Made by a program: the position numbers and the translations under genes. The notes under the pieces were generated by a model. The model saw only the letters and a program-made list of their open reading frames with translations. It searched no databases and had not been told where the DNA came from. From contig JAMPGX010000004.1 in assembly GCA_023663725.1 (NCBI GenBank), forward strand, positions 116,670 to 180,669: a stretch of 64,000 bases of DNA, in the 5' to 3' direction. The stretch comes from a bacterium. Its GTDB lineage: Bacteria; Bacillota; Clostridia; Lachnospirales; Lachnospiraceae. Every line of letters begins with the position of its first letter. Within the stretch, counting starts at the first letter, position 1. Shown piece by piece: positions 1,800 through 49,036 of the stretch.

Positions 1800-1858
1800 C
1801 GTGGGGATATCGGACATGGCATATGCCGGAGAGGACGCACGGAAGGGAAAGGCTGTAT

Positions 1859-2929: not shown

Positions 2930-2970
2930 TTGGCATGAGCCAGAACCGGTGGCGCGGGAATGGGGACAAT

Positions 2971-5819: not shown

Positions 5820-5880
5820 CGGAAAATCTTTGGATAAATGCAAAAGTAAGGCCCTGAAAAGCGGGAGGATAGGAGCTACA

Positions 5881-24411: not shown

Positions 24412-24432
24412 ATGAATCGGGCGGAGGCAAAT

Positions 24433-25755
24433 ATGCAGATTGTGTTATTGGCAGGGGGCAGTGGGAAAAGGCTTTGGCCTCTTTCTAATTCCTTACGATC
24501 AAAACAATTTTTATATACGGGTTATTCCTCAGGTGGAAATAGTGGAACCATGATTTCGAGGGTTTTTCAGCAGGTGAAAAAGGCATGTCCTGATAGTGGT
24601 ATACTCATTGCCACGAATGAAAAAAGTGTTGCCATGCTTGAAACGATAGTGGAAGATACCGATTTTTGTATTGAACCGGAGCAGAAAGACACTTTTCCAG
24701 CGATTTGCCTGGCTCTTGCATATCTAAAAGAGAAGAAAAAGGTAGCAGAAAGTGAAGTGGTAGTTCTTTGTCCAGTCGATGTGGATGCGGAATTGCGCTT
24801 TTTTGAAACATTTAGAGAATTGGAGCGGCTGATAAGAGATGGTGCACATCTCGCATTGATTGCAGTCCAACCTGATCATCCCAGTAATCAATTTGCCTAT
24901 ATGCTGCCGGAGGATAAAAGCAGGTGTTCACCTTGCTATTGGTATAGGGAAAAGCCTGAAATTAAGGATGCAGAAGAATATATTGAACAGGGAGCTCTTT
25001 GGAGCGGAGGCGTATATGCCTTCGAATTGGGATATATGCTTCATCGCGTAAAACAAATCGCTAAGTTTGAGGATTATTGTGATCTTTATCGCAATTATCA
25101 TGTGATGGAGAAAAGAAGCTTTGCCTGTACTGTGGCGGAAAAAGAACAGAATGTGTGGCTGATCAGGTATAATGGTCAATGGGCTGATCGGGGCAATTGG
25201 TTTACTTTTTCAGAAGCAGGGGGATGGGAGAGCTCGGAATATAATATTGTTTCGGAAAACAGTAAAAATGTGCGAGTGATAAATGAGCTTAACATGCCGA
25301 TTCTGTGTATGGGGTGTGACAATATTGTGATTGCTGCCAGCGCGGGAGGCATATTAGTGTCCGATTTAAAAAAATGTACAGATATAAAACCATATGTAGA
25401 CACTCTTACAGAAAAAGTAATGTTTGCTGAACGGACATGGGGAAATTTTTTGATTTTAGATGTACAAAAAAATAGCCTTACGATAAAAATCACATTGCGG
25501 AAAGGGCATCGGATGAATTATCATAGCCATGACCACAGAAGTGAAATATGGACAATTGTTAGTGGAAAGGGAACCACTATTGTTGATGGTGAGAGCAGAG
25601 AGGTAACAGTGGGGGATGTTATTAAATTGCCCATAGGATGTAAACATACTGTGTATGCGACAACGGATCTACATTTGGTGGAAGTTCAATTGGGAGAAGA
25701 CATATCAAGCGCGGATAAGAAAATCTTTGAACAGCCGAGATTGTATGATCTGTAG
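24433..25755 (+). CDS. Diverged mannose-1-phosphate guanylyltransferase / phosphomannose isomerase-type protein
   Basis: The 440 residues have the nucleotidyltransferase start MQIVLLAGGSGKRLWPLS and a C-terminal cupin with MNYHSHDHRSEIWTIVSGKG, the two-domain ManC layout. It is a paralogue of the gene at 49037 but has lost several conserved positions. VEPCRRDTFPA is IEPEQKDTFPA here, FDYAVVEKE is FACTVAEKE, and DLGTW is DRGNW. It may act on a different sugar phosphate or have reduced activity. The ATG at 24433 sits behind GGCGGAGGCAAAT; an ATG at 24412, one base after the previous stop, has no ribosome site. Confidence 0.75.
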   Translation: MQIVLLAGGSGKRLWPLSNSLRSKQFLYTGYSSGGNSGTMISRVFQQVKKACPDSGILIATNEKSVAMLETIVEDTDFCIEPEQKDTFPAICLALAYLKEKKKVAESEVVVLCPVDVDAELRFFETFRELERLIRDGAHLALIAVQPDHPSNQFAYMLPEDKSRCSPCYWYREKPEIKDAEEYIEQGALWSGGVYAFELGYMLHRVKQIAKFEDYCDLYRNYHVMEKRSFACTVAEKEQNVWLIRYNGQWADRGNWFTFSEAGGWESSEYNIVSENSKNVRVINELNMPILCMGCDNIVIAASAGGILVSDLKKCTDIKPYVDTLTEKVMFAERTWGNFLILDVQKNSLTIKITLRKGHRMNYHSHDHRSEIWTIVSGKGTTIVDGESREVTVGDVIKLPIGCKHTVYATTDLHLVEVQLGEDISSADKKIFEQPRLYDL

Positions 25756-25786: not shown

Positions 25787-27781
25787 ATGAACATTTTTTT
25801 CTGTTGTACCAGTATGGCGCATTTGTTTACAGCTGCATATATTGCTGAAAAATATCATAAGCAAGCTTCCAGAAAATATTTGATTCTGCTAAGCCAGATG
25901 AAAGAAATGATAAAATTGATTCCAAATATTATGCGGGCAGAGGTTTGGAATGATATTAGAGTGATTGACAATGAGGCCAAAGAGATTGCCTTTATTCAAG
26001 AGCAAATCGAGGCGCTCTTAAGAGAAGATAAAAGCAAATTCTATCTATTCGGTTTTGAAAATGTCAGTTTTTCGATTGTACACATGTCATCACGAGACGA
26101 TATGGTGGCCTATGTGGATGATGGCGGAATGAGCTATAATTTTCGAGAAGGGCTTCGAAAAACCTATCATAAGGAACTATTTGCAGATAGAGAGTTTCCG
26201 GTGGAAAAGATTCAAGAGTTATGGCTGACAGAGCCCAAGATGCTGGTGGATGATTTTGGGGCAATCTGCAGGGAGCTACAAATAGGCGTTGATTTGCATA
26301 ACAAAACGTTTTATGGGGACTTTCTCAATAAACTCAAAATTATTTTTGACATTCATGACGTGCATGAATCGGACTATAATATTGTATATTTTGATACCTA
26401 TTTGGCTTCGATAGGTTGGATTTCCATAGAATTTGAAGAATTTATGCTGCAAGAAATAGTAGGGCTCGTAGGGAATTCCAGAATAGCAATGAAGGCACAC
26501 CCCAATGAAACGTATTGGGAAAAATATTCTAAGCTTAATTTATCACTGTTGGAGAATAGTATTGTTCCGTGGGAGGTGACAGCTCTACTTCAGAATAAGG
26601 TATCGACAGGACTGCGGATATATATGACCAATGTATCATCTGTAGTACTAAAGCAAAGACTTGTGTTGGGCGATAATGAGTCATATATCATCTTTCTATA
26701 TCGTATCTATGAAAAATATTGCCCTGGCTTAAAAGATAAATTAGAGACGGCATCTGTAGACAGATATATGGAGGTTACGGGGGATAATAGAATGTTTTTT
26801 CCTCAGGATTTTGAGGAATTGAGGAAAGTATTGGAGCAAATAGGCTTTAAAAAGCCTGATGAGGGAGATGTTAAACGGGAGGCAGAGGAATTTTTCATAG
26901 AAAAATATTGGGATTTGTGGAAAGAGACGCCAAGTCACTTTAATTTTTCGACTATTTATTATAAAGGCAAAGAAAAAAAGTTACCGATAGTTTTAAACAG
27001 CAGATCGCTGAAGGTATCTTTGGAATTTGATTTGCAGACGGCAGAGAATACAACCTATAAAACAGAAGGAGTTGGCCTGTTTTGGTATGTATTAAGAGGA
27101 ATTGCGGTTAGAGTACGCATCGAACATATTGTTTATGAAAGTGAGGGAGGAAAAAAGCGGGATATCACCATTAATGAAATTTCTCAAATAGGAGAAAAAG
27201 ATGAAAGGGGATATTTTGTACAGTATAATCTTGACGCTGTCTATAAGCTTCCGATTGTAGATTGGGACATTACAAAAATAACGATTGATGCAGAGATATG
27301 TGTTTTAGATACATATGAGGAAGTAGGTAATGTTTTCAGAGAAAGAATGCGGGTAGACAGTGAAGACAAGGTAGGATTGTTGAAGAAATTAGAAGAGGAG
27401 CAGAGAACTGTCAGGAAATTGCTGGATGATATTGAGGTTAGAGACAAAGTATGTGAGCAATCAAAGTGCGATATAGAAGACAGGGACAAAATATGTGAGC
27501 AATTGATGAGAGATATAGAAGACAGGGACAAAGTATGTGAGCAATTGATGAGAGATATAGAAGATAGAGATAGTATACATAATCACTTAGTAAGAGATAT
27601 AGAGGACAGGGATGCAGTACTGAGACAATTGCTGGATGACATAAGTGGACGGGACTCTTTGATAAGGCAGCTAGAGGAAGATAAGAGAGGGAAAGAACAG
27701 TATATATCTGACCTGGAGGGAAGGATTACAGATTTTCAGAATAGTTTCTGGGGGCGCATATATGGCAAGTGTAAGCGTTAA
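25787..27781 (+). CDS. Sialyltransferase-like GT-B enzyme with C-terminal coiled-coil repeats
   Basis: The 664 residues are not a close match to any family I know, but carry the three hallmarks of bacterial GT-B sialyltransferases in order. There is an N-terminal MNIFFCCTSMAHLFTAAYI strand, a DDG motif (111-113, in YVDDGGMSY), an HP motif (H238-P239, in MKAHPNE) and an SS motif (S284-S285, in YMTNVSSVVL). Residues 390-520 form a beta-rich domain. From 548 a 14-residue repeat (DIEDRDKVCEQLMR type) occurs six times and predicts a coiled coil, followed by a basic end. The next transcription unit makes a CMP-nonulosonate, which makes this the best candidate for its transferase. Confidence 0.6.
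   Translation: MNIFFCCTSMAHLFTAAYIAEKYHKQASRKYLILLSQMKEMIKLIPNIMRAEVWNDIRVIDNEAKEIAFIQEQIEALLREDKSKFYLFGFENVSFSIVHMSSRDDMVAYVDDGGMSYNFREGLRKTYHKELFADREFPVEKIQELWLTEPKMLVDDFGAICRELQIGVDLHNKTFYGDFLNKLKIIFDIHDVHESDYNIVYFDTYLASIGWISIEFEEFMLQEIVGLVGNSRIAMKAHPNETYWEKYSKLNLSLLENSIVPWEVTALLQNKVSTGLRIYMTNVSSVVLKQRLVLGDNESYIIFLYRIYEKYCPGLKDKLETASVDRYMEVTGDNRMFFPQDFEELRKVLEQIGFKKPDEGDVKREAEEFFIEKYWDLWKETPSHFNFSTIYYKGKEKKLPIVLNSRSLKVSLEFDLQTAENTTYKTEGVGLFWYVLRGIAVRVRIEHIVYESEGGKKRDITINEISQIGEKDERGYFVQYNLDAVYKLPIVDWDITKITIDAEICVLDTYEEVGNVFRERMRVDSEDKVGLLKKLEEEQRTVRKLLDDIEVRDKVCEQSKCDIEDRDKICEQLMRDIEDRDKVCEQLMRDIEDRDSIHNHLVRDIEDRDAVLRQLLDDISGRDSLIRQLEEDKRGKEQYISDLEGRITDFQNSFWGRIYGKCKR
27428..27679 (+). repeat. 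Six 42-base tandem repeats coding a coiled coil
   Basis: Units begin at 27428, 27470, 27512, 27554, 27596 and 27638, each starting GAYATAGARGAC or close to it. Units 2 and 3 are nearly identical; the outer ones are diverged. Each codes 14 residues, two heptads, so unit gain or loss keeps both frame and coiled-coil register. Confidence 0.9.
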
Positions 27782-27890
27782 ATTGAGATATTAGCTGCTG
27801 TGGCCCAAGATTTGGCTCCAATATCTCTGATGATAATATTTGTTATTTCATGTTGATGGAAGAGGGTATAGATACTCGCGTACAAATAGA

Positions 27891-27923
27891 TGAGACTGAC
27901 CGAATGGTTGGTCTCATTTTTTT
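27891..27923 (+). terminator. Rho-independent terminator after the sialyltransferase-like gene
   Basis: TGAGACTGACC (27891-27901) pairs with GGTTGGTCTCA (27906-27916), using two G-U pairs and a GAAT loop, and is followed by TTTTTTT. It is one of the clearest terminators in the window and separates the upstream genes from the nonulosonate unit. Confidence 0.85.
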
Positions 27924-27932
27924 ATGTTTTTC

Positions 27933-27961
27933 TTGCAGATTCGCCCCTTTTACTATATAAT
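27933..27961 (+). promoter_or_regulatory. Promoter of the nonulosonate transcription unit
   Basis: TTGCAG (27933-27938), exactly 17 bases, then a perfect TATAAT (27956-27961), starting ten bases after the terminator T run. The ATG of the first gene is at 28054. The region from the -35 box through about 25 bases past the -10 box resembles the region at 35047-35095. Confidence 0.7.
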
Positions 27962-28053: not shown

Positions 28054-29472
28054 ATGAATATAAAAGCAATGTCATGTACGCCCAATACTACACTGCGGGA
28101 AGTATTGGAAATTATTGATAGGACTGCCAAGGGGATTGCTTTTGTCACAGATTCTGCAGAAAAGTTGGTAGGTGTAGTGACGGATGGTGATATTCGGCGA
28201 GGACTTATTTACAAAAATATCTCTCTCAACAGTCCGATCAGTCTATGCATGAATACAGAGTTTATATATGCATTTACTACAGATGACATAGATGAGATTG
28301 CAAAACGGTTTGACAGAAAAATCGCGTATATCCCTATTTTAGATGATGCGGCACGGTTGATTGACTGTTATGAGTGTAAAATGTCTGTAAATATTCCTAT
28401 TGCGAGACCGGAGCTTGGTGGGAATGAGTTAAAATACTTAACAGATGCGTTTGTGTCTACCTGGATCTCAAGTACGGGAAAATACATAAATCAATTTGAG
28501 GAAAAGTTCTCATCATATTGTGGAACTACATATGGAGTGGCGGTATCTAACGGGACTACAGCGTTGCATTTAGCGCTGGCAGCATTAGGAATCAAGGAAG
28601 GGGACGAAGTGATCGTTCCAGACCTGACTTTTGCAGCAACAATTAATGCAGTACTGTATACCGGAGCCACCCCGGTAATCGTGGATATTGAAGAGGACAG
28701 CTGGTGCATTGATCCAAGCGAAATTGAAAAGGCTATCAATTCCAGAACGAAAGCGATTATTCCTGTACATTTATATGGACAACCATGTGATATGGACAGA
28801 ATCATGGAGATAGCAGAAAAGAATAATTTATATGTGATTGAAGATTGTGCAGAGGCACATGGAGCGGAATACAAAGAAAAAAGGGTCGGCGGTTTTGGAA
28901 CCATAGGATGTTTTTCTTTTTACGCAAATAAAGTGATTACTACCGGAGAGGGAGGAATGTGCCTTACGAATGACGCTGCGCTTAATGAACGAATGCGTTT
29001 ACTCAGGGATCATGGGATGAGTAAGCAACGTAAATATTACCATGCCATGGTAGGCTACAATTACCGGATGACCAATATGCAGGCTGCGATTGGCGTCGCT
29101 CAGTTAGAGAGAATAGAGGAGATGCATAGATGGAGAAATGGGTTGGAGGAAAAGTACAGGGCGGCAATTAGGGCGATTAAAGACATAGAGATGCAGAGAA
29201 ACGATCTGCCGAATCGAAAGAAAGCAACATGGCTGATTTCAGCGCTTATGCCAGAAGAAAAGCGAGAACAATTTATCGAAAGAATGAAGGAAAAAGGCAT
29301 TGACATTAGACCCTTTTTTATTCCGCTTAGTCATATGGAGATCTATGAGAAGTATGCTTTTTCAAACGCAGTAAGCACAAGAATTTCACGTCGAGGGATT
29401 AATTTCCCGACAATAAGTACTGTGACAGAAAGTACAATTCAGATAATAACACAAGCGTTAGGAGAAATATGA
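28054..29472 (+). CDS. PLP-dependent sugar aminotransferase (DegT/PseC/LegC family) with N-terminal CBS pair
   Basis: The 472 residues consist of a CBS-domain pair (about 1-115; GIAFVTDSAEKLVGVVTDGD is typical) and a complete DegT/DnrJ/EryC1/StrS aminotransferase (about 120-472). The latter has SSTGKYINQFEE, VSNGTTALHLAL, VIEDCAEAHGA and FYANKVITTGEGG with the PLP lysine at 293. It should put an amino group on a 4-keto sugar nucleotide, the PseC/LegC step. The CBS part may sense a nucleotide and regulate flux. CBS domains are known on the guanylyltransferase PtmE of legionaminate clusters; on the aminotransferase this is unusual. The ATG at 28054 has GGAAGGATATAGAT upstream; an ATG at 28024 is less likely. 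Confidence 0.88.
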   Translation: MNIKAMSCTPNTTLREVLEIIDRTAKGIAFVTDSAEKLVGVVTDGDIRRGLIYKNISLNSPISLCMNTEFIYAFTTDDIDEIAKRFDRKIAYIPILDDAARLIDCYECKMSVNIPIARPELGGNELKYLTDAFVSTWISSTGKYINQFEEKFSSYCGTTYGVAVSNGTTALHLALAALGIKEGDEVIVPDLTFAATINAVLYTGATPVIVDIEEDSWCIDPSEIEKAINSRTKAIIPVHLYGQPCDMDRIMEIAEKNNLYVIEDCAEAHGAEYKEKRVGGFGTIGCFSFYANKVITTGEGGMCLTNDAALNERMRLLRDHGMSKQRKYYHAMVGYNYRMTNMQAAIGVAQLERIEEMHRWRNGLEEKYRAAIRAIKDIEMQRNDLPNRKKATWLISALMPEEKREQFIERMKEKGIDIRPFFIPLSHMEIYEKYAFSNAVSTRISRRGINFPTISTVTESTIQIITQALGEI

Positions 29473-29473
29473 T

Positions 29474-30451
29474 ATGAATAAAAGGCAATCTCCGTTTCTG
29501 GATATCTATAAGAGCTGCAATAGAGGGGAAAATGGTCAAAAATACTCTTGTGCATTGGAAATGAAAACACCAGTGTGTATAGATGTGGAATTGACAAATA
29601 ATTGTAATCTAAATTGCTACATGTGTCCCGTTGGAACAGGAGCAATGAGACGTGAAAAAGGTTTCATTTCCATGGAAACTGTCGAGCGCATTTGTGCGGA
29701 ACTGGCGCGGGAGAAGGATATTTTAGGCGTCAGATTGATTAGATGGGGAGAGCCAACGCTACATCCACAATTTATAGATATTATCAAAAGATTTAAGGAT
29801 ACAGGGAAGAAGGTACATTTTAATACAAATGGTATACTGATTACGCAAGAGCAAATAGAAAAAATTGTCGCGTATGAGATTGATAGCGTGAAGTTTTCGT
29901 TTCAGGGAGTTGACAGGTATACCTACGAGGAGATGCGGCATGGCAGCTCGTGGGATATAATAATGGACAGGGTGCGGATGCTTCATGAAATACGCGGAGA
30001 TAGAGAGTTCCCGTTTATTCAAATATCTACCACTACTACCTATGAGACAGATGAGCAGATAGAAAATTTTAAAAAAGAAATGGAGCCATATTGTGATAGT
30101 TGCAGTGTGGGACGCACAAAGCTGTCACATCTGGAAGTGGAGAAGATGAATCTCTCAGAGGAAGGTAAGCAAAGGTTTTTACGGCTTCTACAGATGGAAT
30201 CGTTGGAAAAACGCCATTTGCACAGCTGTCCAGAGGTGTTTAACAAGTTGTCAGTCAACTGGGATGGAACGGTCACGGCCTGCACATCAGATTACGACAA
30301 CGAAATGAAGCTAGGAAGTATTTGGGAGTATTCTCTTGCAGAGCTTTATCACAGTGAACGTTTAGACAAAATCAGAAAAGAGATTTTGGCAGAGAGATAT
30401 GATGAAATGGAACCTTGTAAGAATTGTTTTGAGTATATCAAATTAACCTAA
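29474..30451 (+). CDS. Radical SAM enzyme with SPASM-like C-terminal cysteines (1 of 2)
   Basis: The 325 residues have the radical SAM cluster motif C44-NLN-C48-YM-C51, preceded by the strand PVCIDVELTNN. RLIRWGEPTLHP (the GGE-like SAM motif) and HFNTNGIL follow. The C-terminal part contains CPEVFNKLSVNWDGTVTACTS and CKNCFEY, the cysteine arrangement of SPASM domains that bind further Fe-S clusters. It starts two bases after the aminotransferase gene. Possible roles are radical dehydration, deamination or epimerisation of an amino sugar; the sequence does not tell which. Confidence 0.88.
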   Translation: MNKRQSPFLDIYKSCNRGENGQKYSCALEMKTPVCIDVELTNNCNLNCYMCPVGTGAMRREKGFISMETVERICAELAREKDILGVRLIRWGEPTLHPQFIDIIKRFKDTGKKVHFNTNGILITQEQIEKIVAYEIDSVKFSFQGVDRYTYEEMRHGSSWDIIMDRVRMLHEIRGDREFPFIQISTTTTYETDEQIENFKKEMEPYCDSCSVGRTKLSHLEVEKMNLSEEGKQRFLRLLQMESLEKRHLHSCPEVFNKLSVNWDGTVTACTSDYDNEMKLGSIWEYSLAELYHSERLDKIRKEILAERYDEMEPCKNCFEYIKLT

Positions 30452-30474
30452 AGATTAAAGAAGGGAGAGTATTG

Positions 30475-31518
30475 ATGAAACAAAAAGTAAATATCACAAT
30501 TAACCCTACACATCCAGATTCCTTAGAAATTAATGGCGGAATTTATGAAAAGTGGAGGGCAAACAGAGCAAAGGATTATGATATTTACCGGAAAAAGTGG
30601 GAGAATAATCCTTTCGATTTTACAGTGGAGAAGTATCCGCTTAATTTGGATATAGAGCCTACAAATCTATGTAACTTGAAGTGCCCTATGTGTCCCAGAA
30701 CTTTGGCGCTTAAACAGGATAAGGATAGTTTAGGGAAGGGGGAGGTGATGCCCTTCTCCATGTACCAGAAGTTGCTAGATGAGGTGTCTGATGAAAATGG
30801 CTGTAATGTATATGCCATAAAGTTGACCCATCGGGGCGAGCCTTTAATCAATTCTGATCTTCCTAAAATGATCGCGTATGCAAAGGAAAAGGGTGCAATT
30901 GATGTTATGACGAATACAAATGCCACCCTGCTTAATTCCAAATTATCAGAAGAAATTTTAGATGCAGGAATTGATAGAATGCTCTTCTCCTTTGACGCTG
31001 CTTCTAAAGAGAAATATGAGGCTATAAGAATCGGAGCTGTCTACGAAGAGGTCCTTGAAAATATAAGAGAGTTTGTCGCTTTGAGGAATAAGAAAAAAGC
31101 ATGGAATACTTTGGTGCGAGTTACAATGGTCATGAATGATGAGACATTGGATGAAATAGAGGCATATAAAAGACTCTTTTCTGGTGTTGCAGATGTTATT
31201 GGCTTTAACCGCTTGCTGAAGGAACCGCAATTTGTATCTGAATGCGAGGTGAAGATTGACGGAAAGGTTAAGAATGTTAACCAATGCTTATTTGCCTGCA
31301 GTCAGCTCTGGCAAAGGCTGATTATAAACAGTGATGGCAATGTGGAGGTCTGCTGCCCTAACTTTAAAGAAGAATATGTGATTGGCAATGTCAGAGATAG
31401 CAGTATTGAAGAGCTTTGGCATTGTGATAAACTGAATGCAATTAGAGAGTTACATAAAAATGGTGAATGGCATAAAATTCCCATGTGCAGGAAATGCAAT
31501 GTGGCGTGGATGAATTAA
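30475..31518 (+). CDS. Radical SAM enzyme with SPASM-like C-terminal cysteines (2 of 2)
   Basis: The 347 residues carry C66-NLK-C70-PM-C73 after NLDIEPTN, then IKLTHRGEPLINSDLP and DVMTNTNATLLN. The end has CSQLWQRLIINSDGNVEVCC, then CRKCNVAW, again SPASM-like. It is related to, but clearly different from, the enzyme just upstream (gap 23 bases). The in-frame TTG at 30472 is skipped in favour of the ATG at 30475, behind GAAGGGAGAGT. Two successive radical SAM enzymes inside a nonulosonate operon suggest unusual chemistry on the sugar precursor. Confidence 0.88.
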   Translation: MKQKVNITINPTHPDSLEINGGIYEKWRANRAKDYDIYRKKWENNPFDFTVEKYPLNLDIEPTNLCNLKCPMCPRTLALKQDKDSLGKGEVMPFSMYQKLLDEVSDENGCNVYAIKLTHRGEPLINSDLPKMIAYAKEKGAIDVMTNTNATLLNSKLSEEILDAGIDRMLFSFDAASKEKYEAIRIGAVYEEVLENIREFVALRNKKKAWNTLVRVTMVMNDETLDEIEAYKRLFSGVADVIGFNRLLKEPQFVSECEVKIDGKVKNVNQCLFACSQLWQRLIINSDGNVEVCCPNFKEEYVIGNVRDSSIEELWHCDKLNAIRELHKNGEWHKIPMCRKCNVAWMN

Positions 31519-31531
31519 GGGAGTTGATTAT

Positions 31532-32581
31532 ATGAATTTTACTTCTCAGATAAGAATAGGCACAAAAGAGGTGTCCGAATCAGGAAAGGTTTTTGTCATT
31601 GCGGAGGCAGGGGTAAATCATGGTGGAGATATGGCGCTTGCTAAAGAGATGATAGATGTGGCTGCTGAAGCGGGTGCAGATGCAGTTAAATTTCAAAATT
31701 TTAAGGCACATGGGCTGATCTTGCAAGGCGTGGATAAAGCGCCCTACCAAAAAAAGACAAGTGCTGCCAGTGAAACACAATACGATATGTTGAGACGCCT
31801 TGAAGTGAAGTATAGCGAAAATATTATGCTTCAGAAATACTGTGAGCGGAGGGGAATCCTCTTTTTATCTACACCCTTTGAGGAAGAAAGTTTGCACGAA
31901 TTATGTGATATGGACATTCCTGCTATTAAGATTGCGGCAACAGATATTACCAATATACAATTTTTACGGCAGGTGGCAAGGAAAGGGAAACCGATCATCC
32001 TTTCTGCGGGAATGTGTTATTTGGAGGAAATTTCCAAGGCGCTTGAAGCGATTAGTGAGTTTAATCGAGATGTTATTTTGCTGCAGTGTACGGCAAATTA
32101 TCCAATCAGGGATTTTGAGGTGAATCTTAGGGTAATCAGGACTTTGCAAAAAGAATTTAATATTTTAACCGGATATTCAGACCATTCGGTTGGAATAGGC
32201 GCGGCGCCTTATGCTGTTGCAGCTGGAGCTCGATTGATTGAAAAGCATTTTACATTGAGTCGGAAACTGGAAGGACCGGATCAAAAGGCATCTGTCGAAC
32301 CGGATGAACTGAGAGAAATGATTGTAAGGATCAGGCAAGTGGAAGAATTTTTGGGAAATGCAGTAAAAACGCCTACTTTGTCGGAACAATTTACAAGAAA
32401 ATCCCTGCAGAAATGCATTGTGGCGAAAAGCAGGATAAAATGTGGAGAGAGATTTACAGAGGACAATTTGACGGCAAAGAGAACGAATGGAGTGGGAATC
32501 TCCGCGATATATTTCGATGATGTGGTGGGAAAACAGGCTACTCGAGATTATGAAGTAGATGCCATAATAGAGGTGGAATAG
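31532..32581 (+). CDS. N-acetylneuraminate synthase family protein (NeuB/LegI/PseI type)
   Basis: Condenses a six-carbon (often N-acylated) sugar with phosphoenolpyruvate to give a nine-carbon ulosonic acid. The 349 residues have VFVIAEAGVNHGGDMALAKEM, the family opening, then ADAVKFQNF, FLSTPFEEESL, KPIILSAGM and LLQCTANYP. SDHSVGIGAAPYAVAAGARLIEKHFTL follows in two parts. The last 60 residues are an antifreeze-like SAF domain (SLQKCIVAKSRIKCGERFTEDNLTAKR). The family members cannot be told apart by eye, so the product (Neu5Ac-, Leg- or Pse-like) is open. It follows the second radical SAM gene by 13 bases. Confidence 0.93.
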   Translation: MNFTSQIRIGTKEVSESGKVFVIAEAGVNHGGDMALAKEMIDVAAEAGADAVKFQNFKAHGLILQGVDKAPYQKKTSAASETQYDMLRRLEVKYSENIMLQKYCERRGILFLSTPFEEESLHELCDMDIPAIKIAATDITNIQFLRQVARKGKPIILSAGMCYLEEISKALEAISEFNRDVILLQCTANYPIRDFEVNLRVIRTLQKEFNILTGYSDHSVGIGAAPYAVAAGARLIEKHFTLSRKLEGPDQKASVEPDELREMIVRIRQVEEFLGNAVKTPTLSEQFTRKSLQKCIVAKSRIKCGERFTEDNLTAKRTNGVGISAIYFDDVVGKQATRDYEVDAIIEVE

Positions 32582-33448
32582 ATGATCTATGTATCGTCGG
32601 CGTGTATAGCAAAGGAAAAAATTAATGAGATAATTGGGACATATGTTCAAAACGGGATTAAAGACATAGAATTGTCTGGAGGTACAAAATATTATCCGGA
32701 TATAGAATATGATCTAGTAGAGGGGAAGAAAAAATATGGCTTGCAATATGCCTGTCACGCATATTTTCCTCCAGCGCAGGAAGACTTTGTAGTTAATCTT
32801 GCGTCTTGCAATGATAAGATATATGATCAGTCAAGAGAGCATTATCGTAGATGCATCAAGTTATTGACGCGTTTGGAGTGTAAAACCTTATCTGTACATG
32901 CAGGTTTTTTGGTGGAGATAAACAGTGAACAGATAGGGAAAAGCCTTAACAGCGCTATTATCTATGACAAACAGGAGGCATATGACAGATTTTGCAATGC
33001 GTACCAGGAACTTGTAGCAGAGGCGCAGAAGGAACAAATAACGGTATATCTTGAAAATAACGTTATTAACGCCAGAAATTACCAAAATTTTGGTTATAAG
33101 AATTATTTCATGATGACTGACTGGAAGTCAATATGTGAAATGCGAGAGAAAATAAACTTTAATTTGCTGTTGGATCTTGGGCATTTATATGTTTCTTCTC
33201 ACACATTAATGCTGGATTACAAACAGCAGGTGAAAATGCTGTGCGATCAAGTGGAGTGGATACATATCAGTGACAATGACGGCATTACAGATCAGCATTA
33301 TCCTTTAAAAGAGGGAAGCGATATTGTTTGGGCTCTGAGTTATCTGAAGCACAAGCACCCGGAAACAAATCTTACGTTGGAAACAACGGGTGATATTTCG
33401 GGAATTCTTTCCAGCTACAATATAGTGAAGAATATGGGGGAAGTATGA
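32582..33448 (+). CDS. TIM-barrel sugar isomerase/epimerase-like protein (xylose-isomerase-like)
   Basis: The 288 residues resemble the sugar phosphate isomerase/epimerase (AP endonuclease family 2) fold. GIKDIELSGGTKYYPD, CKTLSVHAGF, ITVYLENNVI, FNLLLDLGHLYVSS and VEWIHISDNDG carry the spaced H, E, D-x-G-H and H-x-x-D metal ligands expected for the family. NLTLETTGD holds the final Glu. It starts directly after the synthase stop. In this cassette it could stand in for the missing LegG/PseG-type step by epimerising or isomerising the hexose before condensation. Confidence 0.8.
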   Translation: MIYVSSACIAKEKINEIIGTYVQNGIKDIELSGGTKYYPDIEYDLVEGKKKYGLQYACHAYFPPAQEDFVVNLASCNDKIYDQSREHYRRCIKLLTRLECKTLSVHAGFLVEINSEQIGKSLNSAIIYDKQEAYDRFCNAYQELVAEAQKEQITVYLENNVINARNYQNFGYKNYFMMTDWKSICEMREKINFNLLLDLGHLYVSSHTLMLDYKQQVKMLCDQVEWIHISDNDGITDQHYPLKEGSDIVWALSYLKHKHPETNLTLETTGDISGILSSYNIVKNMGEV

Positions 33449-34176
33449 AAGTAATTTTGTGCGGCTATAATTGGACGGGAGCGAAGGCATTAAAAATATT
33501 AAAAGATAAGGGACATGATGTCTTTGTATATACTCATAAAATGGAGAATTATTGCGTTGATGTGGAAGGAATGTGTATTCGGCAAAATATTCCATATACT
33601 TTGGAAAAAATACGATTGGATAACATGCCCTTTGTCCCTGATGTTATCTGTTCTGTCTATTATAGGTATATAATAGGAGCAGATGTGATAGAAGCAGTCC
33701 AAGGTAGAATTTTTAATTTGCATCCGGCATTGCTCCCTAAATATAGAGGATGTAGCAGCTTGACATGGGCAATGATTAACGGAGAAGAGAAAAGTGGTTT
33801 TACATATCATTATATTGATAATAATTGTGACACCGGAGATATTATTATCCAGAGAGAAGTGATGATAGAGCCATTTGACACTCAGAGTACATTGTATAAC
33901 CGCGTTATGTTTGAGGCGATGGATTACTTTTATGAAGCATTCGAGAAAGTAGTTGCAAATGCATCTGGAACACCGCAGTCAGGAGAGAGTAGCCTGTATA
34001 AGCGAGGTTGTCCACTGGGGGGAATTCTTGAAAGGGACAGCTCAGTGCCATATGCGGACAGGTTTATTCGTGCGATGATTAATCCGCCATATAAACCGGC
34101 TCAATGCGAAGGAAAATATATCTATACATTAAGCGAATTCCTGGAACTGAAGGATAGTTATGAGGGAGGACGGTAA
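33445..34176 (+). CDS. Sugar N-formyltransferase
   Basis: The 243 residues form a formyltransferase catalytic domain. FNLHPALLPKYRGCSSLTWA carries N91 and H93, and IDNNCDTGDIII carries D129, the Asn-His-Asp triad known from methionyl-tRNA and sugar N-formyltransferases that use N10-formyl-tetrahydrofolate. The protein is shorter than methionyl-tRNA formyltransferase and lacks its C-terminal tRNA-binding domain, so a sugar amine is the likely acceptor. The gene overlaps the previous stop by four bases (ATGA) and is followed with no gap by the CMP-sugar synthetase. The finished nonulosonate is therefore predicted to carry an N-formyl group. Confidence 0.88.
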   Translation: MKVILCGYNWTGAKALKILKDKGHDVFVYTHKMENYCVDVEGMCIRQNIPYTLEKIRLDNMPFVPDVICSVYYRYIIGADVIEAVQGRIFNLHPALLPKYRGCSSLTWAMINGEEKSGFTYHYIDNNCDTGDIIIQREVMIEPFDTQSTLYNRVMFEAMDYFYEAFEKVVANASGTPQSGESSLYKRGCPLGGILERDSSVPYADRFIRAMINPPYKPAQCEGKYIYTLSEFLELKDSYEGGR

Positions 34177-34860
34177 ATGATTGCAGTAATTCCAGCACGG
34201 GGGGGCTCCAAGGGAGTCCCCCAAAAAAATATAAGACTCTTAAGTGGGCGGCCCTTGATTGAGTATACTATTGCAGCTGCAAAAGAAAGCTGTCTATTTG
34301 AAAAGATTGTGGTATCTACGGACAGCGAACAAATTGCGGCAGTGGCAGTGCAGGCGGGTGCTGAAGTGCCTTTTTTGAGACCAATGGAAATTTCGGGAGA
34401 TAGCGCATCATCGGATGATGCAGTTCTTCATGCGTTGGATTTCTATGAAAAGCGAGGGGAGTATTTTGACAAGGTGTGCAAGCTCCAACCAACTTCCCCA
34501 TTGAGGAGGGCTAATCATATCATAGACGCATATAAGTTAATGCACGACAAAAAGGCTACTTTTTTGGTTAGTATATGTGAATGTGAGCATTCGCCATTGT
34601 GGTGTGGGACAATTGATATGGAAACTCTTCGAATGGATGAATTTATTCGGGAAGAGGCAAAGCGGGCGTGCAGACAGGAACTACCGCAGTATTATAGATT
34701 GAATGGAGCAATTTATATGGGATGGACCGATGCGTATAAAGAAAATAGGAGCTTTTTGGGAAAAAATTGTGTGGGATATATTATGAGCCAGGAGGAGTCG
34801 GTGGATATTGATACTAGTTTGGATTTTTCTTTTGCGGAGCTAATCATGAAACAGAAATAG
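34177..34860 (+). CDS. CMP-nonulosonate synthetase (acylneuraminate cytidylyltransferase, NeuA/LegF/PseF type)
   Basis: Activates the nine-carbon sugar with CTP. The 227 residues start MIAVIPARGGSKGVPQKNIR, the conserved nucleotide loop, then VVSTDSEQIAAVA, DSASSDDAVLHAL, LQPTSPLRRANHI and YRLNGAIYMG, and end with ESVDIDTSLDF, which holds the metal-binding D-I-D motif. The ATG follows GGGAGGACGGTAA and lies directly after the formyltransferase stop. It is the last gene of the unit and is followed by a terminator. CMP activation fits the sialyltransferase-like protein at 25787. Confidence 0.94.
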   Translation: MIAVIPARGGSKGVPQKNIRLLSGRPLIEYTIAAAKESCLFEKIVVSTDSEQIAAVAVQAGAEVPFLRPMEISGDSASSDDAVLHALDFYEKRGEYFDKVCKLQPTSPLRRANHIIDAYKLMHDKKATFLVSICECEHSPLWCGTIDMETLRMDEFIREEAKRACRQELPQYYRLNGAIYMGWTDAYKENRSFLGKNCVGYIMSQEESVDIDTSLDFSFAELIMKQK

Positions 34861-34893
34861 CGAGAGTGAAAAAATTTTTTAAATAGTGTTTTG

Positions 34894-34939
34894 AAGGTCT
34901 TCTACTAAAAATTGAAAATTGTAGAGGGCCTTTTATTAT
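34894..34939 (+). terminator. Terminator of the nonulosonate unit
   Basis: AAGGTCTTCTAC (34894-34905) pairs with GTAGAGGGCCTT (34921-34932), with one G-U pair and one mismatch, around a 15-base loop, followed by TTTATTA. The bases just before and into the stem (AAATAGTGTTTTGAAGGTCT) recur at 52393 in front of another terminator. Confidence 0.7.
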
Positions 34940-36662: not shown

Positions 36663-38957
36663 ATGAAAAGAATATTGCGGAATATTAGAAAAAGCGAAGT
36701 GGGAATAGAAATTTTGTTTGCGCTGATTTGTACAGTACTTGCATTTTCAATTTATGCAGGTCAATATTTTGGCTCTGATTCAGTGACGTTTGGTAAGATA
36801 GGAGACCATATCCTTTCTTGTTTCCCAGCATTTAGAAAAATATGTCAGTTCTTTACATCCGAACAGGTAATAGTTGGAGTTGATAATGGGACCCTTAATG
36901 GGGCTTCAGAATTTTTTTTGCGTCCTAACATGCCTGTTATTTATGTACCATTGTATATATTTGCATGGCTTACAAAGTTTTTTCATTCTAGGGCGATGTA
37001 CATTGCTTTTTTTGCTGTACATATGTTTTTTTCCGTGTTTTTTGCGCAGAGATTGGCAAAAAAGTATTTTGGCATAGGCCGATATTTGGCATTTGTATAC
37101 AGTTCCTTGATTATTTATCTTTTGAGTGTTGAATCGTGGTGCATCAGCTTTTATATTGTGACAGCGTTGATGCCAGTACTATTGTATTTTTCACTTGAGA
37201 GTGTGTATAATTCAAATGTGGGAACCATAGGGTCATGTGTATTGGTCATGGTATTGTCGCTCACCAGTGGATATATAACGTTGTCTTTGGCAATGGTAGT
37301 GGTAGATGTGCTGTTTACTATTTTTTATCTTAGTGTGCGTGAAAAGAAATTTGATTTGAAGAGATGCCTCTTTTTCCTGATCTGTCCGGCTGTGGCAGGA
37401 GCCATATGTTTACCATATTATCTTCAGGTTTTAATATATGTTAAAAGGGTTGTGCAAAGCCCAATGGCGTTTATAGATGCGATTTACTACAAGCTTTCAC
37501 TGAGCGACCTTTTGAATGTGTTGACAAACTATTCAATTCCTGCGGGGTCAGGAATTGAACAGCTATGGGCGCTTTCATTTGGCTTTGTAGCTTGTTTGGC
37601 CATTGCGATGGGCATAAAGGAAAAAGTGTTTGATAAAATGAAGGCTGTGGAGCGGTGGACCTGTTATTTGGGGTTTGGCGCTTATTTGCTGATAGTGTTT
37701 TGGGCGAATGAGACGGCATTACCGTTTTCGGCGTGGCTGTATACTTTTGTACCGATTTTGGGAGGAATGCATATCCCTCTCCGCTATTTAATGATTGTTC
37801 TGCCGGTAACATATATGGGGATTATGTTGATTTATAAATATTTAAATGCTGAGAAGTGCAGGAAATCACTTAAATATATTGGTTGGTGTGTGTCTGGCAT
37901 TTTGGTATTTTATTTGATTGCGTATAGGGCAGGAGTGCCCATGCCATTGGTAAGCAGAGATGCTTTTATATTTGAAATGCTGGTATTTACATGGTTTCTA
38001 TATGAGGCGTGGAAGGATGGGCTAAATCATTATAGAACACAGTTAATTTGGGTAGTGGCGATTTTTGTTCCTGCAGTTTCGTTTCTCTATCAGACAACAG
38101 ATGTATATGTTGATGGAAACACTTTGAGGAATCGCAGCATTGTATATGATGAAGACGCTATAAATAACATCGACAAATTCATTTCCACTCTAAATGAAAA
38201 AGAATTATATCGCTATGTTGCTTATGATAGCGAGGAAAGTGTTCCTCAATATCTGCTTTCGAATTACGAATGGTATGGATATTCGGATTATAAACTTTGT
38301 AATTATTATGGATATGAATTATCATTAGGAACCCCGCGAGACTATTTAGAAAAAAATCCATTTTTTAATGTGATTAACTGGGAATATGTAGCAGATACCC
38401 GAGCAGATTTTATTATGTTGGACTCTTCAATTTTAGAAAATGAAGAAATGATTTCCACAATGATTGATTGGAATAAGGGAGTAGCTTATGTGGGGAATGG
38501 ACGTTTGATCTGTGCGTTAAATAAATTCATTCCGTCTGTCATTTGTGGGGAAAAGTTCGTTTTTGATAGTGATAGTTCATATGACAATGGGTATTTTTAT
38601 TCATTAGATTTGACTAATGATGATGTAGTTGACTTTGAAACAAATTCAAGTACTTATTATAGGTTAACTTTAAATTCGAGAAGAGATTCTATAATAGCAT
38701 TTTTGCCATATGCCAATAGGAATTATCATTATTTTATAGACGGAAAAGAGATTGATCCGGAAATATATGATACGCAGGCCATTTTTAGGGTTTCAGGGGG
38801 AAATCATACGATTAGCGTAGAGTATAGGAATGCTATGGGTAAGATGGGGGTAATAGCAATATTTGTAGCATGTATTATGTTGCCGGCGGTACTGATTATA
38901 TATGGAGTGCTGGTAAATATAGTGAAGAGGGAAGACAAAAAGGAGAAATGCGTATGA
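36663..38957 (+). CDS. YfhO/GT-C-like polytopic membrane protein
   Basis: The 764 residues have about twelve membrane segments in the first 470 residues, then a soluble extracytoplasmic part of about 230 residues and a last membrane segment near the C terminus (MGVIAIFVACIMLPAVLIIYGVL). An acidic pair sits in the first outer loop (FGSDSVTF) and an amphipathic GGMHIPLRYLMIVLP segment follows, as in YfhO / GT-C glycosyltransferases that use polyprenyl-phosphate sugars. It may glycosylate wall polymer or the exported glycan, using lipid-linked sugar from the GtrB-like protein at 43891. The ATG follows AAAGGGATTTTA. Confidence 0.72.
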   Translation: MKRILRNIRKSEVGIEILFALICTVLAFSIYAGQYFGSDSVTFGKIGDHILSCFPAFRKICQFFTSEQVIVGVDNGTLNGASEFFLRPNMPVIYVPLYIFAWLTKFFHSRAMYIAFFAVHMFFSVFFAQRLAKKYFGIGRYLAFVYSSLIIYLLSVESWCISFYIVTALMPVLLYFSLESVYNSNVGTIGSCVLVMVLSLTSGYITLSLAMVVVDVLFTIFYLSVREKKFDLKRCLFFLICPAVAGAICLPYYLQVLIYVKRVVQSPMAFIDAIYYKLSLSDLLNVLTNYSIPAGSGIEQLWALSFGFVACLAIAMGIKEKVFDKMKAVERWTCYLGFGAYLLIVFWANETALPFSAWLYTFVPILGGMHIPLRYLMIVLPVTYMGIMLIYKYLNAEKCRKSLKYIGWCVSGILVFYLIAYRAGVPMPLVSRDAFIFEMLVFTWFLYEAWKDGLNHYRTQLIWVVAIFVPAVSFLYQTTDVYVDGNTLRNRSIVYDEDAINNIDKFISTLNEKELYRYVAYDSEESVPQYLLSNYEWYGYSDYKLCNYYGYELSLGTPRDYLEKNPFFNVINWEYVADTRADFIMLDSSILENEEMISTMIDWNKGVAYVGNGRLICALNKFIPSVICGEKFVFDSDSSYDNGYFYSLDLTNDDVVDFETNSSTYYRLTLNSRRDSIIAFLPYANRNYHYFIDGKEIDPEIYDTQAIFRVSGGNHTISVEYRNAMGKMGVIAIFVACIMLPAVLIIYGVLVNIVKREDKKEKCV

Positions 38958-39733
38958 AAGTAGTACTATTAGCTGGCGGATTTGGCACACGTATTAGTGA
39001 GGAGAGCCATTTAAAACCAAAGCCAATGCTCGAAATTGGTGGGAAACCTATTCTCTGGCATATAATGAAGGAGTATTCTCACTATGGATATAACGATTTT
39101 GTTATTTGTTGTGGATATAAACAACATGTGATCAAAGAATGGTTTGCGGACTATTATCTCTATAACAGTGATGTGACTTTCGATTTTAAATGCAACAACA
39201 AGATGATGATCCACAACAATGTTTCTGAGCCATGGAAAGTGACTCTTGTTGACACAGGATTGTATACAATGACAGGAGGAAGGATAAAACGTATACAGAA
39301 ATATATAGGAAAAGAAACTTTTATGTTGACATATGGGGATGGAGTATGTGATATCAATATTGAAGAATTGATAAAGTACCATAAATCTCATGGTAAGATA
39401 GCGACATTGACGGCCGCCTTGGTAGAGCAACGTTTCGGGGTACTGGATATTTCAGACCAAAAAAATATTATTTCTTTCAGAGAAAAAGGCAAGGGTGATG
39501 GTTCTCGAATTAATGCGGGTTATATGGTGTTTCAGCCAGAAATATTTGATTATATTGACGGCGATGCTACTGTGCTTGAAAAGGAACCGTTGGAGATGTT
39601 GGCTGCTAAAGGAGAGTTAATGGCATACATGTTTGACGGGTATTGGCAGTGCATGGATACTAAACGCGAAATGGATAAGCTAAATGAACTTTGGAATTCA
39701 AACAAGGCACCGTGGAAAACATGGGATAATTAG
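38954..39733 (+). CDS. rfbF: Glucose-1-phosphate cytidylyltransferase
   Basis: Makes CDP-glucose, the entry to CDP-3,6-dideoxyhexoses. The 259 residues are the family's length: MKVVLLAGGFGTRISEESHL, KPKPMLEIGGKPILWHIMK, FVICCGYKQHVIKEWF, TYGDGVCDINIEEL, INAGYMVFQPEIFDYI and EKEPLEML are all conserved RfbF segments. The start overlaps the previous stop by four bases (ATGA frame overlap) with GGAG nine bases upstream. The next gene is RfbH, and RfbG is five genes on, so the first three enzymes of the pathway are present. Confidence 0.95.
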   Translation: MKVVLLAGGFGTRISEESHLKPKPMLEIGGKPILWHIMKEYSHYGYNDFVICCGYKQHVIKEWFADYYLYNSDVTFDFKCNNKMMIHNNVSEPWKVTLVDTGLYTMTGGRIKRIQKYIGKETFMLTYGDGVCDINIEELIKYHKSHGKIATLTAALVEQRFGVLDISDQKNIISFREKGKGDGSRINAGYMVFQPEIFDYIDGDATVLEKEPLEMLAAKGELMAYMFDGYWQCMDTKREMDKLNELWNSNKAPWKTWDN

Positions 39734-39749
39734 AAAAAGGAGAGTAAAA

Positions 39750-41090
39750 ATGTTTGAGAATAAGACAGAAAAACAAGCTAAAGAAGAAATTTTGGGCTTG
39801 GTAAAAGAGTATGCGGAGCGGTTTCATAATCAAAAAAAAGATTTTGTTGAGGGCCAGAGAATACCTTACGCATCCCGCGTGTATGACAGTGCAGAGATGG
39901 TTAATCTTGTTGACAGTTCGCTGGAGTTCTGGCTTACTTCAGGCAGATATACAGAAGAATTTGAGAAAAAATTGGCGAATTATTTGGGTGTAAAATATTG
40001 CTCGCTTGTGAATTCAGGTTCTTCAGCAAACTTGAATGCTTTTATGGCTTTAACTTCTCCACTTTTGGGGGACAGAAGGATTAAGCGCGGCGATGAAATG
40101 ATAACCGTGGCGGCAGGGTTTCCCACAACAATTACGCCAGCTATTCAGTTTGGGGTTACCCCAGTGTTTGTTGATGTTACCATTCCGCAATATAATATAG
40201 ACACTACAAAGCTAGAGGATGCAATATCAGAAAAGACAAAAGCCGTGATGATAGCGCATACATTAGGGAATCCTTTTGACTTGGCGGCTGTGAGAGCTTT
40301 CTGTGATAAGTATGACTTATGGCTCGTTGAGGATAATTGTGATGCTTTAGGCTCTAAATATACGATTGACGGACAGGAGAAGTTTACTGGTACCATTGGG
40401 GATATTGGAACCTCTAGCTTTTATCCACCGCATCACATGACAATGGGAGAAGGGGGTGCAGTGTATACAAATAATGCAATTCTAAACAAGGCAATTCGTT
40501 CTTTCAGGGATTGGGGAAGAGATTGTGTTTGCCCTTCGGGACATGATAACTTGTGCGGGCATCGCTTTGATAAGCAGTATGGAGAATTGCCGCTTGGATA
40601 TGACCATAAATATGTATACTCTCATTTTGGCTATAACTTAAAAGCCACAGACATGCAGGCGGCAATTGGTTGTGCCCAATTGGAGAAATTTCCTTCTTTT
40701 GTAGAAAAAAGGAAACATAATTTTGTCAGACTAAAAAAGGCCTTGGCTGGAACAGAAGATAAATTGATTTTGCCAGTTGCGTGTACGAATGCGGATCCTA
40801 GTTGGTTTGGATTCTTAATTACATGTAAAGAGGGGGTTGACCGAAATGCTGTGGTGCAGTATGTGGAATCAAAGGGGATTCAGACCAGAATGCTTTTTGC
40901 TGGAAATTTAATTAAGCACCCTTGCTTTGATGAAATGCGAGCTAGTGGAACTGGATACCGTGTGGTTGGCGAACTGACTAATACAGATAGGATTATGAAG
41001 GATACTTTTTGGGTAGGTGTATATCCTGGTATGACTGATGAGATGATTGATTATATGGCAAAAGTAATTATTGAAGCTCTAAACAATTAA
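39750..41090 (+). CDS. rfbH: CDP-4-keto-6-deoxyglucose 3-dehydrase (E1)
   Basis: Removes the C3 hydroxyl of CDP-4-keto-6-deoxyglucose with PMP and an iron-sulfur cluster. The 446 residues have the aminotransferase fold, but the usual PLP lysine is a histidine (H228 in FYPPHHMTMGEGG), the known signature of this enzyme. C259, C261 and C269 (CVCPSGHDNLCG) with C197 (EDNCD) match the spacing expected for [2Fe-2S] ligands. The ATG at 39750 lies behind AAGGAGAGTAAAA. The reductase partner (RfbI/E3, flavin-ferredoxin type) is not seen in the window. Confidence 0.95.
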   Translation: MFENKTEKQAKEEILGLVKEYAERFHNQKKDFVEGQRIPYASRVYDSAEMVNLVDSSLEFWLTSGRYTEEFEKKLANYLGVKYCSLVNSGSSANLNAFMALTSPLLGDRRIKRGDEMITVAAGFPTTITPAIQFGVTPVFVDVTIPQYNIDTTKLEDAISEKTKAVMIAHTLGNPFDLAAVRAFCDKYDLWLVEDNCDALGSKYTIDGQEKFTGTIGDIGTSSFYPPHHMTMGEGGAVYTNNAILNKAIRSFRDWGRDCVCPSGHDNLCGHRFDKQYGELPLGYDHKYVYSHFGYNLKATDMQAAIGCAQLEKFPSFVEKRKHNFVRLKKALAGTEDKLILPVACTNADPSWFGFLITCKEGVDRNAVVQYVESKGIQTRMLFAGNLIKHPCFDEMRASGTGYRVVGELTNTDRIMKDTFWVGVYPGMTDEMIDYMAKVIIEALNN

Positions 41091-41101
41091 AGGGGATTTA
41101 T

Positions 41102-42903: not shown

Positions 42904-42945
42904 TTGTTTTGGATGAGATAAAATGTCGGAGTTAGAGAATACGTT

Positions 42946-43863: not shown

Positions 43864-43890
43864 TGACTTGCGAATGTATAGGTGGAGGAC

Positions 43891-44841: not shown

Positions 44842-44842
44842 T

Positions 44843-45907: not shown

Positions 45908-45950
45908 ATATTTTTTGAATAAGATTTAGCACGGAAAAATCTTGCTTTTT

Positions 45951-45960
45951 TGTGTATAAT
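45951..45960 (+). promoter_or_regulatory. Extended -10 promoter candidate for gmd
   Basis: TGTGTATAAT with the TATAAT at 45955-45960, 52 bases before the gmd ATG. No good -35 box at 16-18 bases (CGGAAA at 45932); the TG at the extended position may compensate. Confidence 0.35.
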
Positions 45961-46012
45961 AGTATATGATATAGTCGTGTTTACACAATATTCACAGGAA
46001 AGGCGATTTGTT

Positions 46013-49021: not shown

Positions 49022-49036
49022 TTGGAGGAAGAGATA

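Follow-up and report, generated by a model that had tools for sequence, protein, structure and literature searches.

What does a bacterium make with a nonulosonate operon that carries a formyltransferase and two radical S-adenosylmethionine (SAM) enzymes, and in which no protein matches the acetyltransferase or nucleotide-sugar hydrolase families of the known pathways? This question is raised by seven genes at positions 28054-34860 of a 64,000-nucleotide stretch of a Lachnospiraceae genome (contig JAMPGX010000004.1 of assembly GCA_023663725.1), hereafter the window. The gene set departs from the standard ones for legionaminate, pseudaminate or sialate. We tentatively suggest, with somewhat less than even confidence, that it makes a cytidine monophosphate (CMP)-activated, N-formylated nonulosonate from guanosine diphosphate (GDP)-mannose and not from an N-acetylglucosamine (GlcNAc) nucleotide. 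A sequence-only reading of the window had proposed an undescribed CMP-activated, N-formylated ulosonic acid; this remains the best reading of the genes, and it is the source of the precursor that we correct. Sialic-acid-like sugars often coat bacterial surfaces and shape host recognition. To our knowledge, the known bacterial ones start from GlcNAc nucleotides, and deaminoneuraminic acid (Kdn) from mannose phosphate. With a GDP-mannose route via an amino sugar, this family would gain a branch; such a route would explain how a NeuB-type synthase is fed without a 2-epimerase, and would give the radical SAM genes of surface-sugar loci, for which we know of no established function, a testable use.

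The seven open reading frames all lie on the forward strand, separated by 1, 20 (23 if the third gene is counted from ATG 30475), 13, 0, -4 and 0 bases. They encode a perosamine-synthase-like aminotransferase with CBS and DegT domains (28054-29472), two radical SAM, twitch-like enzymes with Radical_SAM and SPASM domains (29474-30451, and 30472, a TTG, or 30475, an ATG, to 31518), a NeuB-type synthase with NeuB and SAF domains and a changed active-site motif (31532-32581), an AP_endonuc_2 TIM-barrel metalloenzyme that is a candidate nucleotide-sugar hydrolase or isomerase (32582-33448), an N-formyltransferase with a Formyl_trans_N domain (33445-34176) and, judged by its CTP_transf_3 domain, a CMP-nonulosonate synthetase (34177-34860). 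Coordinates, gaps and domain matches thus bear out the operon as first described. Family-model scans of the seven proteins likewise agree with the earlier claim of absent genes: none matched the acetyltransferase or nucleotide-sugar-hydrolase families of known pathways, PseG included.

Perosamine synthesis is suggested first by the formyltransferase. Its nearest solved chain is a GDP-4-amino-4,6-dideoxymannose (GDP-perosamine) formyltransferase at 138.8 bits, the next kind scores 61 bits lower (77.8), and the residues N91, H93 and D129, which had been read from the sequence before, are indeed in place. For the aminotransferase part of the first protein (PF00571, 51.2 bits; PF01041, 422.5 bits), the top solved chain is perosamine synthetase at 322.7 bits, practically level with 7b0m, a 'sugar aminotransferase', at 322.4 bits; 4ztc (195.8 bits) and 2fn6 (143.8 bits), which we take to be PglE and PseC, follow. 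LegC (TIGR04181) is its best NCBIfam match, at 367 bits against a cut-off of 420 that is not reached, and PseC stays at 285.2 against 423.5. The LegC model separates two sets of proteins: all five CBS-aminotransferases scored (that of the window and those of loci L144, L145, L147 and L142) give 342.0-368.9, versus 438.8-491.6 for five of five presumed LegC proteins of canonical loci; a sixth row, the second DegT protein of L130, gives 241.9. A 32-protein tree places neither the CBS-aminotransferases nor the perosamine synthetase 3bn1 within the LegC-like clade (100/99).

A matching 4-keto sugar could come from a GDP-mannose 4,6-dehydratase gene, gmd, 11 kb downstream of the operon (45950-47065, forward strand; TIGR01472 513.8, cut-off 415). 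The sequence-only reading had assigned this role to a membrane dehydratase near 5881, a CapD/PseB-like protein (5830-7758); GDP-4-keto-6-deoxymannose from gmd is the likelier source. The LegB model TIGR04180 gave at best 131.2 (cut-off 475) among ten window proteins. GDP-mannose itself may be supplied by a mannose-1-phosphate guanylyltransferase-like protein (24412-25755, forward strand), whose best match, TIGR01479 at 147.3, does not reach the cut-off of 372.95; a second such gene (49022-50353, forward strand) scores 183, also under the cut-off. The gmd model is passed in seven of eight genomes with the operon or relatives of its genes (our own plus the genomes of loci L144-L148 and L150; L149 stays under at 352.3) versus 18 of the 245 genomes of the class, our own included, a contrast that carries no formal test and to which other phyla bring a different background.

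Both enzymes have their nearest solved chains, in the aminotransferase by a tie, in the GDP-N-formylperosamine pathway, and the dehydratase is over its cut-off in the cluster. Unlike that pathway, the operon also encodes NeuB, a CMP synthetase, the TIM-barrel protein and a radical SAM pair, and its aminotransferase bears a CBS domain. From these parts we propose the following route. The gmd product, a clear member of its family, would convert GDP-mannose into GDP-4-keto-6-deoxymannose, which the aminotransferase, going by its nearest relatives, would turn into GDP-perosamine. The formyltransferase would then formylate the 4-amino group to give GDP-N-formylperosamine, the nucleotide would be released, by elimination possibly through the TIM-barrel protein, and the NeuB-type synthase would condense N-formylperosamine with phosphoenolpyruvate (PEP). 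The CMP synthetase, whose family is clear, would finally activate the product, with an expected skeleton of a 7-formamido-3,7,9-trideoxy-nonulosonate with a 5-hydroxyl. Perosamine is already manno-configured, also at C2, which would let NeuB accept it with no 2-epimerase. The radical SAM pair, found in this version of the module only, would act on a carbinol of the sugar precursor, by oxidation or epimerisation.

A 2-epimerase of the known family was not found: Epimerase_2 (PF02350, the LegG/NeuC family) has no match in our genome, which is 96% complete, in a search whose control was positive in 11 of 14 cases. The genome does hold a separate pseudaminate cluster some 47-58 kb downstream of the operon (G000:C44:192500-212400; locus L122, 6496-17199), with PseC (473.5), PseI (432.5), PseG (203.3, cut-off 153.55) and PseF (283.2) all over their cut-offs. 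A formyltransferase gene lies between PseI and PseG, which suggests that N-formyl pseudaminate is made in the same cell. With a synthase and a cytidylyltransferase of its own, this cluster makes the window operon look like a second, probably extra, pathway. The sequence-only reading had said that it would be refuted by normal PseG or LegG genes lying elsewhere and being used with this set; PseG does lie elsewhere, but it has its own partners. The operon resembles pseudaminate pathways with a PseJ-type formyltransferase in its proposed N-formylated nonulosonate, and differs from them in that its aminotransferase, synthase (259.4 with PseI, cut-off 340.25) and CMP synthetase (191.2 with PseF, cut-off 205.7) all remain under the cut-offs of the Pse models.

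The synthase itself is a LegI/NeuB-type enzyme that narrowly passes the NnaB model TIGR03569 (402.2, cut-off 399.65). We fetched 20 NeuB regions, namely our own pseudaminate cluster and 19 loci of other genomes of the class; in these 19, NeuB is 42-49% identical to the window synthase, and a gene like the operon's aminotransferase is present in 16, as is one like its CMP synthetase. In a tree of 26 synthases, the window protein belongs to neither of the two large LegI-type groups and forms a clade (100/99) with those of L144, L145 and L146, which the Azospirillum synthase joins (94/92) and that of L150 does not. All five share an A(A/S)TD motif where 19 LegI-type sequences have SGE, SGD, SSD or SSE. 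The window, L144, L145 and L146 proteins also have QC in place of HC and KRT where LegI-type sequences have KRP (KRC in L141), while Azospirillum retains HC and KRP. By residue counting, D138 and R317 of the window synthase align with Glu134 and Arg314 of the meningococcal enzyme, the latter of which is described as assisting in positioning the N-acetyl group (PMC6795526). These changes are compatible with a different substrate, and are no proof of one.

The step for which we see a serious competitor, and one that we hold possible on a tentative footing, is the release of the nucleotide. The TIM-barrel protein may be an aldose-ketose isomerase or an epimerase that acts on a free or phosphorylated sugar, with nucleotide release left to a housekeeping enzyme; apart from that one step, this would fit the GDP-mannose route. 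The domain is clear (PF01261, 81.1, cut-off 31.1), the Endo IV equivalog is far from reached (22.0, cut-off 244), and the predicted fold, of the sugar 3-epimerase/xylose isomerase kind, is closest to sugar epimerases and isomerases, which weighs against a hydrolase. The profile search speaks a more mixed language: after 3wqo it matches Endo IV twice at 1.8e-5, over 50 residues only, and then the isomerase Art22 (0.45), APN1 (0.66) and another Endo IV (2.3). A CbiR phosphodiesterase model matched six of six members of this protein type and an epimerase model one of six, all far under the cut-offs. H59, H106 and D237 are invariant in alignment A6, and we take them to be the residues expected at Endo IV-like sites. 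Profile-profile comparison with one Endo IV gave a probability of just 1.8%; in this alignment, what are presumably the ligand positions of Endo IV are in register from H106 onward. The isomerase label of the sequence-only reading is therefore uncertain, with an epimerase-like look to the fold and a mixed picture from the sequence.

Relatives of the TIM barrel led to the same genes in distant bacteria. A single-sequence search of genome contigs gave nine pattern matches and no relatives, while an alignment of two TIM barrels gave seven relatives among 31 pattern matches; with the same alignment, none of 73 pattern matches in viral contigs was a relative, nor were relatives found in phages. Searches in 61 and in 391 genomes returned, besides the protein's own match, weak partial matches only. 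For the formyltransferase, the rows listed from a search across the class were mostly open frames of about 310-340 residues, and they were set aside. The most complete of the seven loci is that of Lachnospiraceae UBA7086 (L144), with NeuB (63% identity), a TylF-like methyltransferase, the TIM barrel (54%), the CBS-aminotransferase (59%), a formyltransferase (60%) fused to a PglD-like domain, an oxidoreductase, a class III aminotransferase and a CMP synthetase (42%). A Clostridia metagenome-assembled genome (MAG; L145) has NeuB (65%), a TylF-like protein, the TIM barrel (52%), the CBS-aminotransferase (57%), an oxidoreductase and a CMP synthetase (35%), without a gene like our formyltransferase. 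The genes for CMP synthetase, TIM barrel and CBS-aminotransferase (48%) are also neighbours on an Azospirillum sp. TSA2s plasmid, where NeuB lies about 3.4 kb beyond them on the opposite strand. Other sets are partial: NeuB (56%), a PglD-like protein and the TIM barrel (40%) before a contig end in Bacteroidetes (L146), NeuB (42%) and TIM barrel (28%) before a contig end in Desulfococcus (L150), and CBS-aminotransferase (56-57%) and TIM barrel (35%) with no NeuB match within 10 kb in two Helicobacter loci (L147, L148). In Omnitrophica (L149) the TIM barrel occurs without NeuB or CBS-aminotransferase; there it lies beside a 503-residue protein that by eye is B12-binding radical SAM-like (1278-3638). 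One more relative is found on a cyanobacterial plasmid (L143), where the neighbours are mostly named hypothetical or unknown; this locus was left out of the comparison.

NeuB, CBS-aminotransferase and TIM barrel thus form a recurring module, seen whole in L144, L145 and Azospirillum, while the loci of Bacteroidetes, Helicobacter and Desulfococcus have parts of it. As a test of the seven-gene order, these neighbourhoods return the core set, and the two radical SAM genes are not in them. Whether the module as a whole marks a distinct, multi-phylum class of nonulosonates, the 5-hydroxy-7-acylamido-3,7,9-trideoxy sugars made from GDP-mannose via GDP-perosamine, with radical SAM editing of the precursor here and, separately recruited, in Rhizobiaceae, appears doubtful at present; if true, we would know of no earlier case of radical chemistry in the making of sialic-acid-like sugars. 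Among the matches listed from the open-licence literature we found no published account of such a pathway or module; that literature held nothing on radical SAM enzymes tied to nonulosonic or legionaminic acid or on a set of formyltransferase, NeuB and aminotransferase, and its matches for radical SAM and pseudaminic acid were, by title, on other subjects.

Several observations weigh against the GDP-mannose route. The product is deduced from genes alone. The gmd gene is 11 kb off and may serve a neighbouring short-chain dehydrogenase/reductase (SDR) gene, and no gmd match examined as a locus falls inside the module loci of the relatives. Epimerase_2 occurs in seven of the eight genomes, so that only our own genome argues that the epimerase is dispensable; of its matches, 12 of 14 were examined as loci and none lies inside a module locus. 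In Helicobacter cinaedi three such matches lie within 12 kb of one another; should G451:C49 be the contig of the module, they may be 24-36 kb away from it. The tied aminotransferase chain 7b0m sits inside the LegC-side clade, and the tree of 32 does not settle where 3bn1 branches relative to the CBS-aminotransferases. An Asp at the Glu134 position, taken by itself, is found in several LegI-type synthases as well. For the radical SAM genes, NeuB was found in none of 17 viral loci with relatives of the second enzyme, within the flanks examined, and neither enzyme has a match (E 1e-4) in the seven TIM-barrel loci or the Azospirillum stretch; the Azospirillum plasmid carries one match, about 80 kb from the module.

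Some of these points would suit a modified legionaminate pathway, which we consider rather unlikely. Here UDP-GlcNAc (UDP, uridine diphosphate) would be dehydrated by the CapD/PseB-like enzyme at 5830-7758, aminated and formylated by the operon's two enzymes, and the radical SAM pair and TIM barrel would replace LegG, to yield an N-formyl legionaminate variant. Such a dehydratase does lie in the window, LegC is the best family match of the aminotransferase (367 of 420) and groups with its tied chain 7b0m, and the synthase passes the NnaB cut-off, if narrowly, and shares 42-49% identity with the NeuBs from the 19 loci of the class. A Neorhizobium locus with a radical SAM gene and NeuB (L176) also has LegB over the cut-off, and ten of its proteins have no NeuC match. 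The operon shares with the LegB, C, H, G, I and F pathway the synthase, the CMP synthetase and the logic of 4-amination, N-acylation, PEP condensation and CMP activation. It departs from it in a LegC cut-off that is not reached, in that no LegB was found among the ten window proteins tested and no LegG-type gene in the genome, in the altered NeuB motif, and in the presence of a formyltransferase, a TIM-barrel protein and the radical SAM pair. Two points tell against this alternative: the module relatives without radical SAM genes likewise have no Epimerase_2 in the locus among the 12 of 14 matches examined, and the formyltransferase is clearly closest to the perosamine enzyme.

Alternatively, the operon may serve two products, GDP-N-formylperosamine from the aminotransferase and formyltransferase as a direct glycan unit, and a separate CMP-nonulosonate from the synthase and CMP synthetase with the TIM barrel and the two radical SAM enzymes. 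Glycans that contain N-formylperosamine are known; one report names it in an O-polysaccharide (PMC2698832). We regard this division as unlikely, given that the genes follow one another closely, the formyltransferase standing between TIM barrel and CMP synthetase, that NeuB, TIM barrel and CBS-aminotransferase are kept together in distant bacteria, and that no other gene of the operon is an obvious supplier of a NeuB substrate.

Of all parts of the operon, the radical SAM pair is the oddest and the least understood. Both proteins have an intact CX3CX2C motif (at 44 in the first) and the auxiliary-cluster cysteines C-X17-C and C-X2-C (C252-X17-C270 and C315-X2-C318 in the first) of twitch enzymes, in a spacing that we take to be BtrN-like. 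BtrN, a cyclitol dehydrogenase, is their nearest solved chain. They differ from it and from other twitch/SPASM enzymes in lying in a nonulosonate operon, and the stretch that matches best is the auxiliary domain. In the first reading the two enzymes were seen as sugar-linked, and their relatives uphold this: six of eight class loci around them have a sugar-nucleotide or glycosyltransferase-like match, four of these confirmed by Pfam (L055 and L060 are without). One sugar locus (L054, 8173-14913) contains four radical SAM/SPASM genes in 7 kb, among glycosyltransferases, and two viral loci (L181, L182) hold genes like the second enzyme (30-32% identity) together with SDR sugar genes. The two best of 22 plasmid records for the second enzyme, among 15 listed, are from Neorhizobium galegae (2e-39) and Rhizobium sp. 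WYJ-E13 (7e-32).

In these two Rhizobiaceae, the radical SAM gene stands one gene before NeuB (L176, 9409-17538) or directly before it (L177, 9388-17057). Their operons resemble ours in this placement and differ in having no gene like the CBS-aminotransferase in between and no TIM-barrel match, and, in the scan of L176, LegB over the cut-off and a PseG-like protein (103.0, cut-off 153.55), besides an SDR, a hexapeptide acetyltransferase-like and a cytidylyltransferase-like protein; NeuC was not matched among the ten L176 proteins scanned. Their product is perhaps a 5-acetamido-3,5,9-trideoxy, fusaminate-like nonulosonate. In a radical SAM tree with long branches and seven open forks, the second enzyme joins the two Rhizobiaceae proteins (91/91) and the first lies elsewhere. 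We think that the pair probably oxidises or epimerises a carbinol of the sugar precursor, which is the weakest step of the proposed route. It is very improbable that they are instead peptide or metal-cofactor maturases with no tie to sugar: a tungsten-cofactor maturase model is the best NCBIfam match of both (104.5 and 95.8 bits), but its cut-off is 380, no gap in the operon leaves room for a precursor peptide gene, and the sugar-type class loci, the NeuB-linked plasmid relatives and the nearest solved chain, the cyclitol dehydrogenase BtrN, all point to sugars.

Transcription signals frame the operon. A possible promoter, read from the sequence (27933-27961, forward strand), combines a perfect TATAAT (27956-27961) with a 17-nucleotide spacer and a -35 hexamer, TTGCAG at 27933, that agrees with the consensus in only 3/6 positions, which is why it does not appear in the consensus-scan listing. 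A hairpin scan found a terminator-like hairpin at 27888-27919, upstream of the first gene. The terminator proposed after the last gene stands up to folding against shuffles: at 34893-34937 (forward strand) there is a 13-pair hairpin of -17.5 kcal/mol with a U-rich tail (z -5.19; 0 of 200 shuffles equally good), which the general hairpin scan, limited to loops of 3-8, does not list.

The surroundings of the operon, from near 16 kb on, have about 36-42% G+C and are rich in sugar genes; G+C drops from about 51% to 38% near window position 16000, where the sugar cluster begins. At 25787-27781, a 664-residue protein with no Pfam match repeats a motif near DIEDRDxxxEQLMR in its C-terminal part. Further downstream, 38870-45907 holds genes for cytidine diphosphate (CDP)-sugars, RfbF, RfbH and a CDP-glucose 4,6-dehydratase (over the cut-off), together with an apparent transketolase that, judged by eye, is split across two genes (41102, 41938); in another locus (L058), relatives of this CDP-sugar set adjoin a radical SAM gene.

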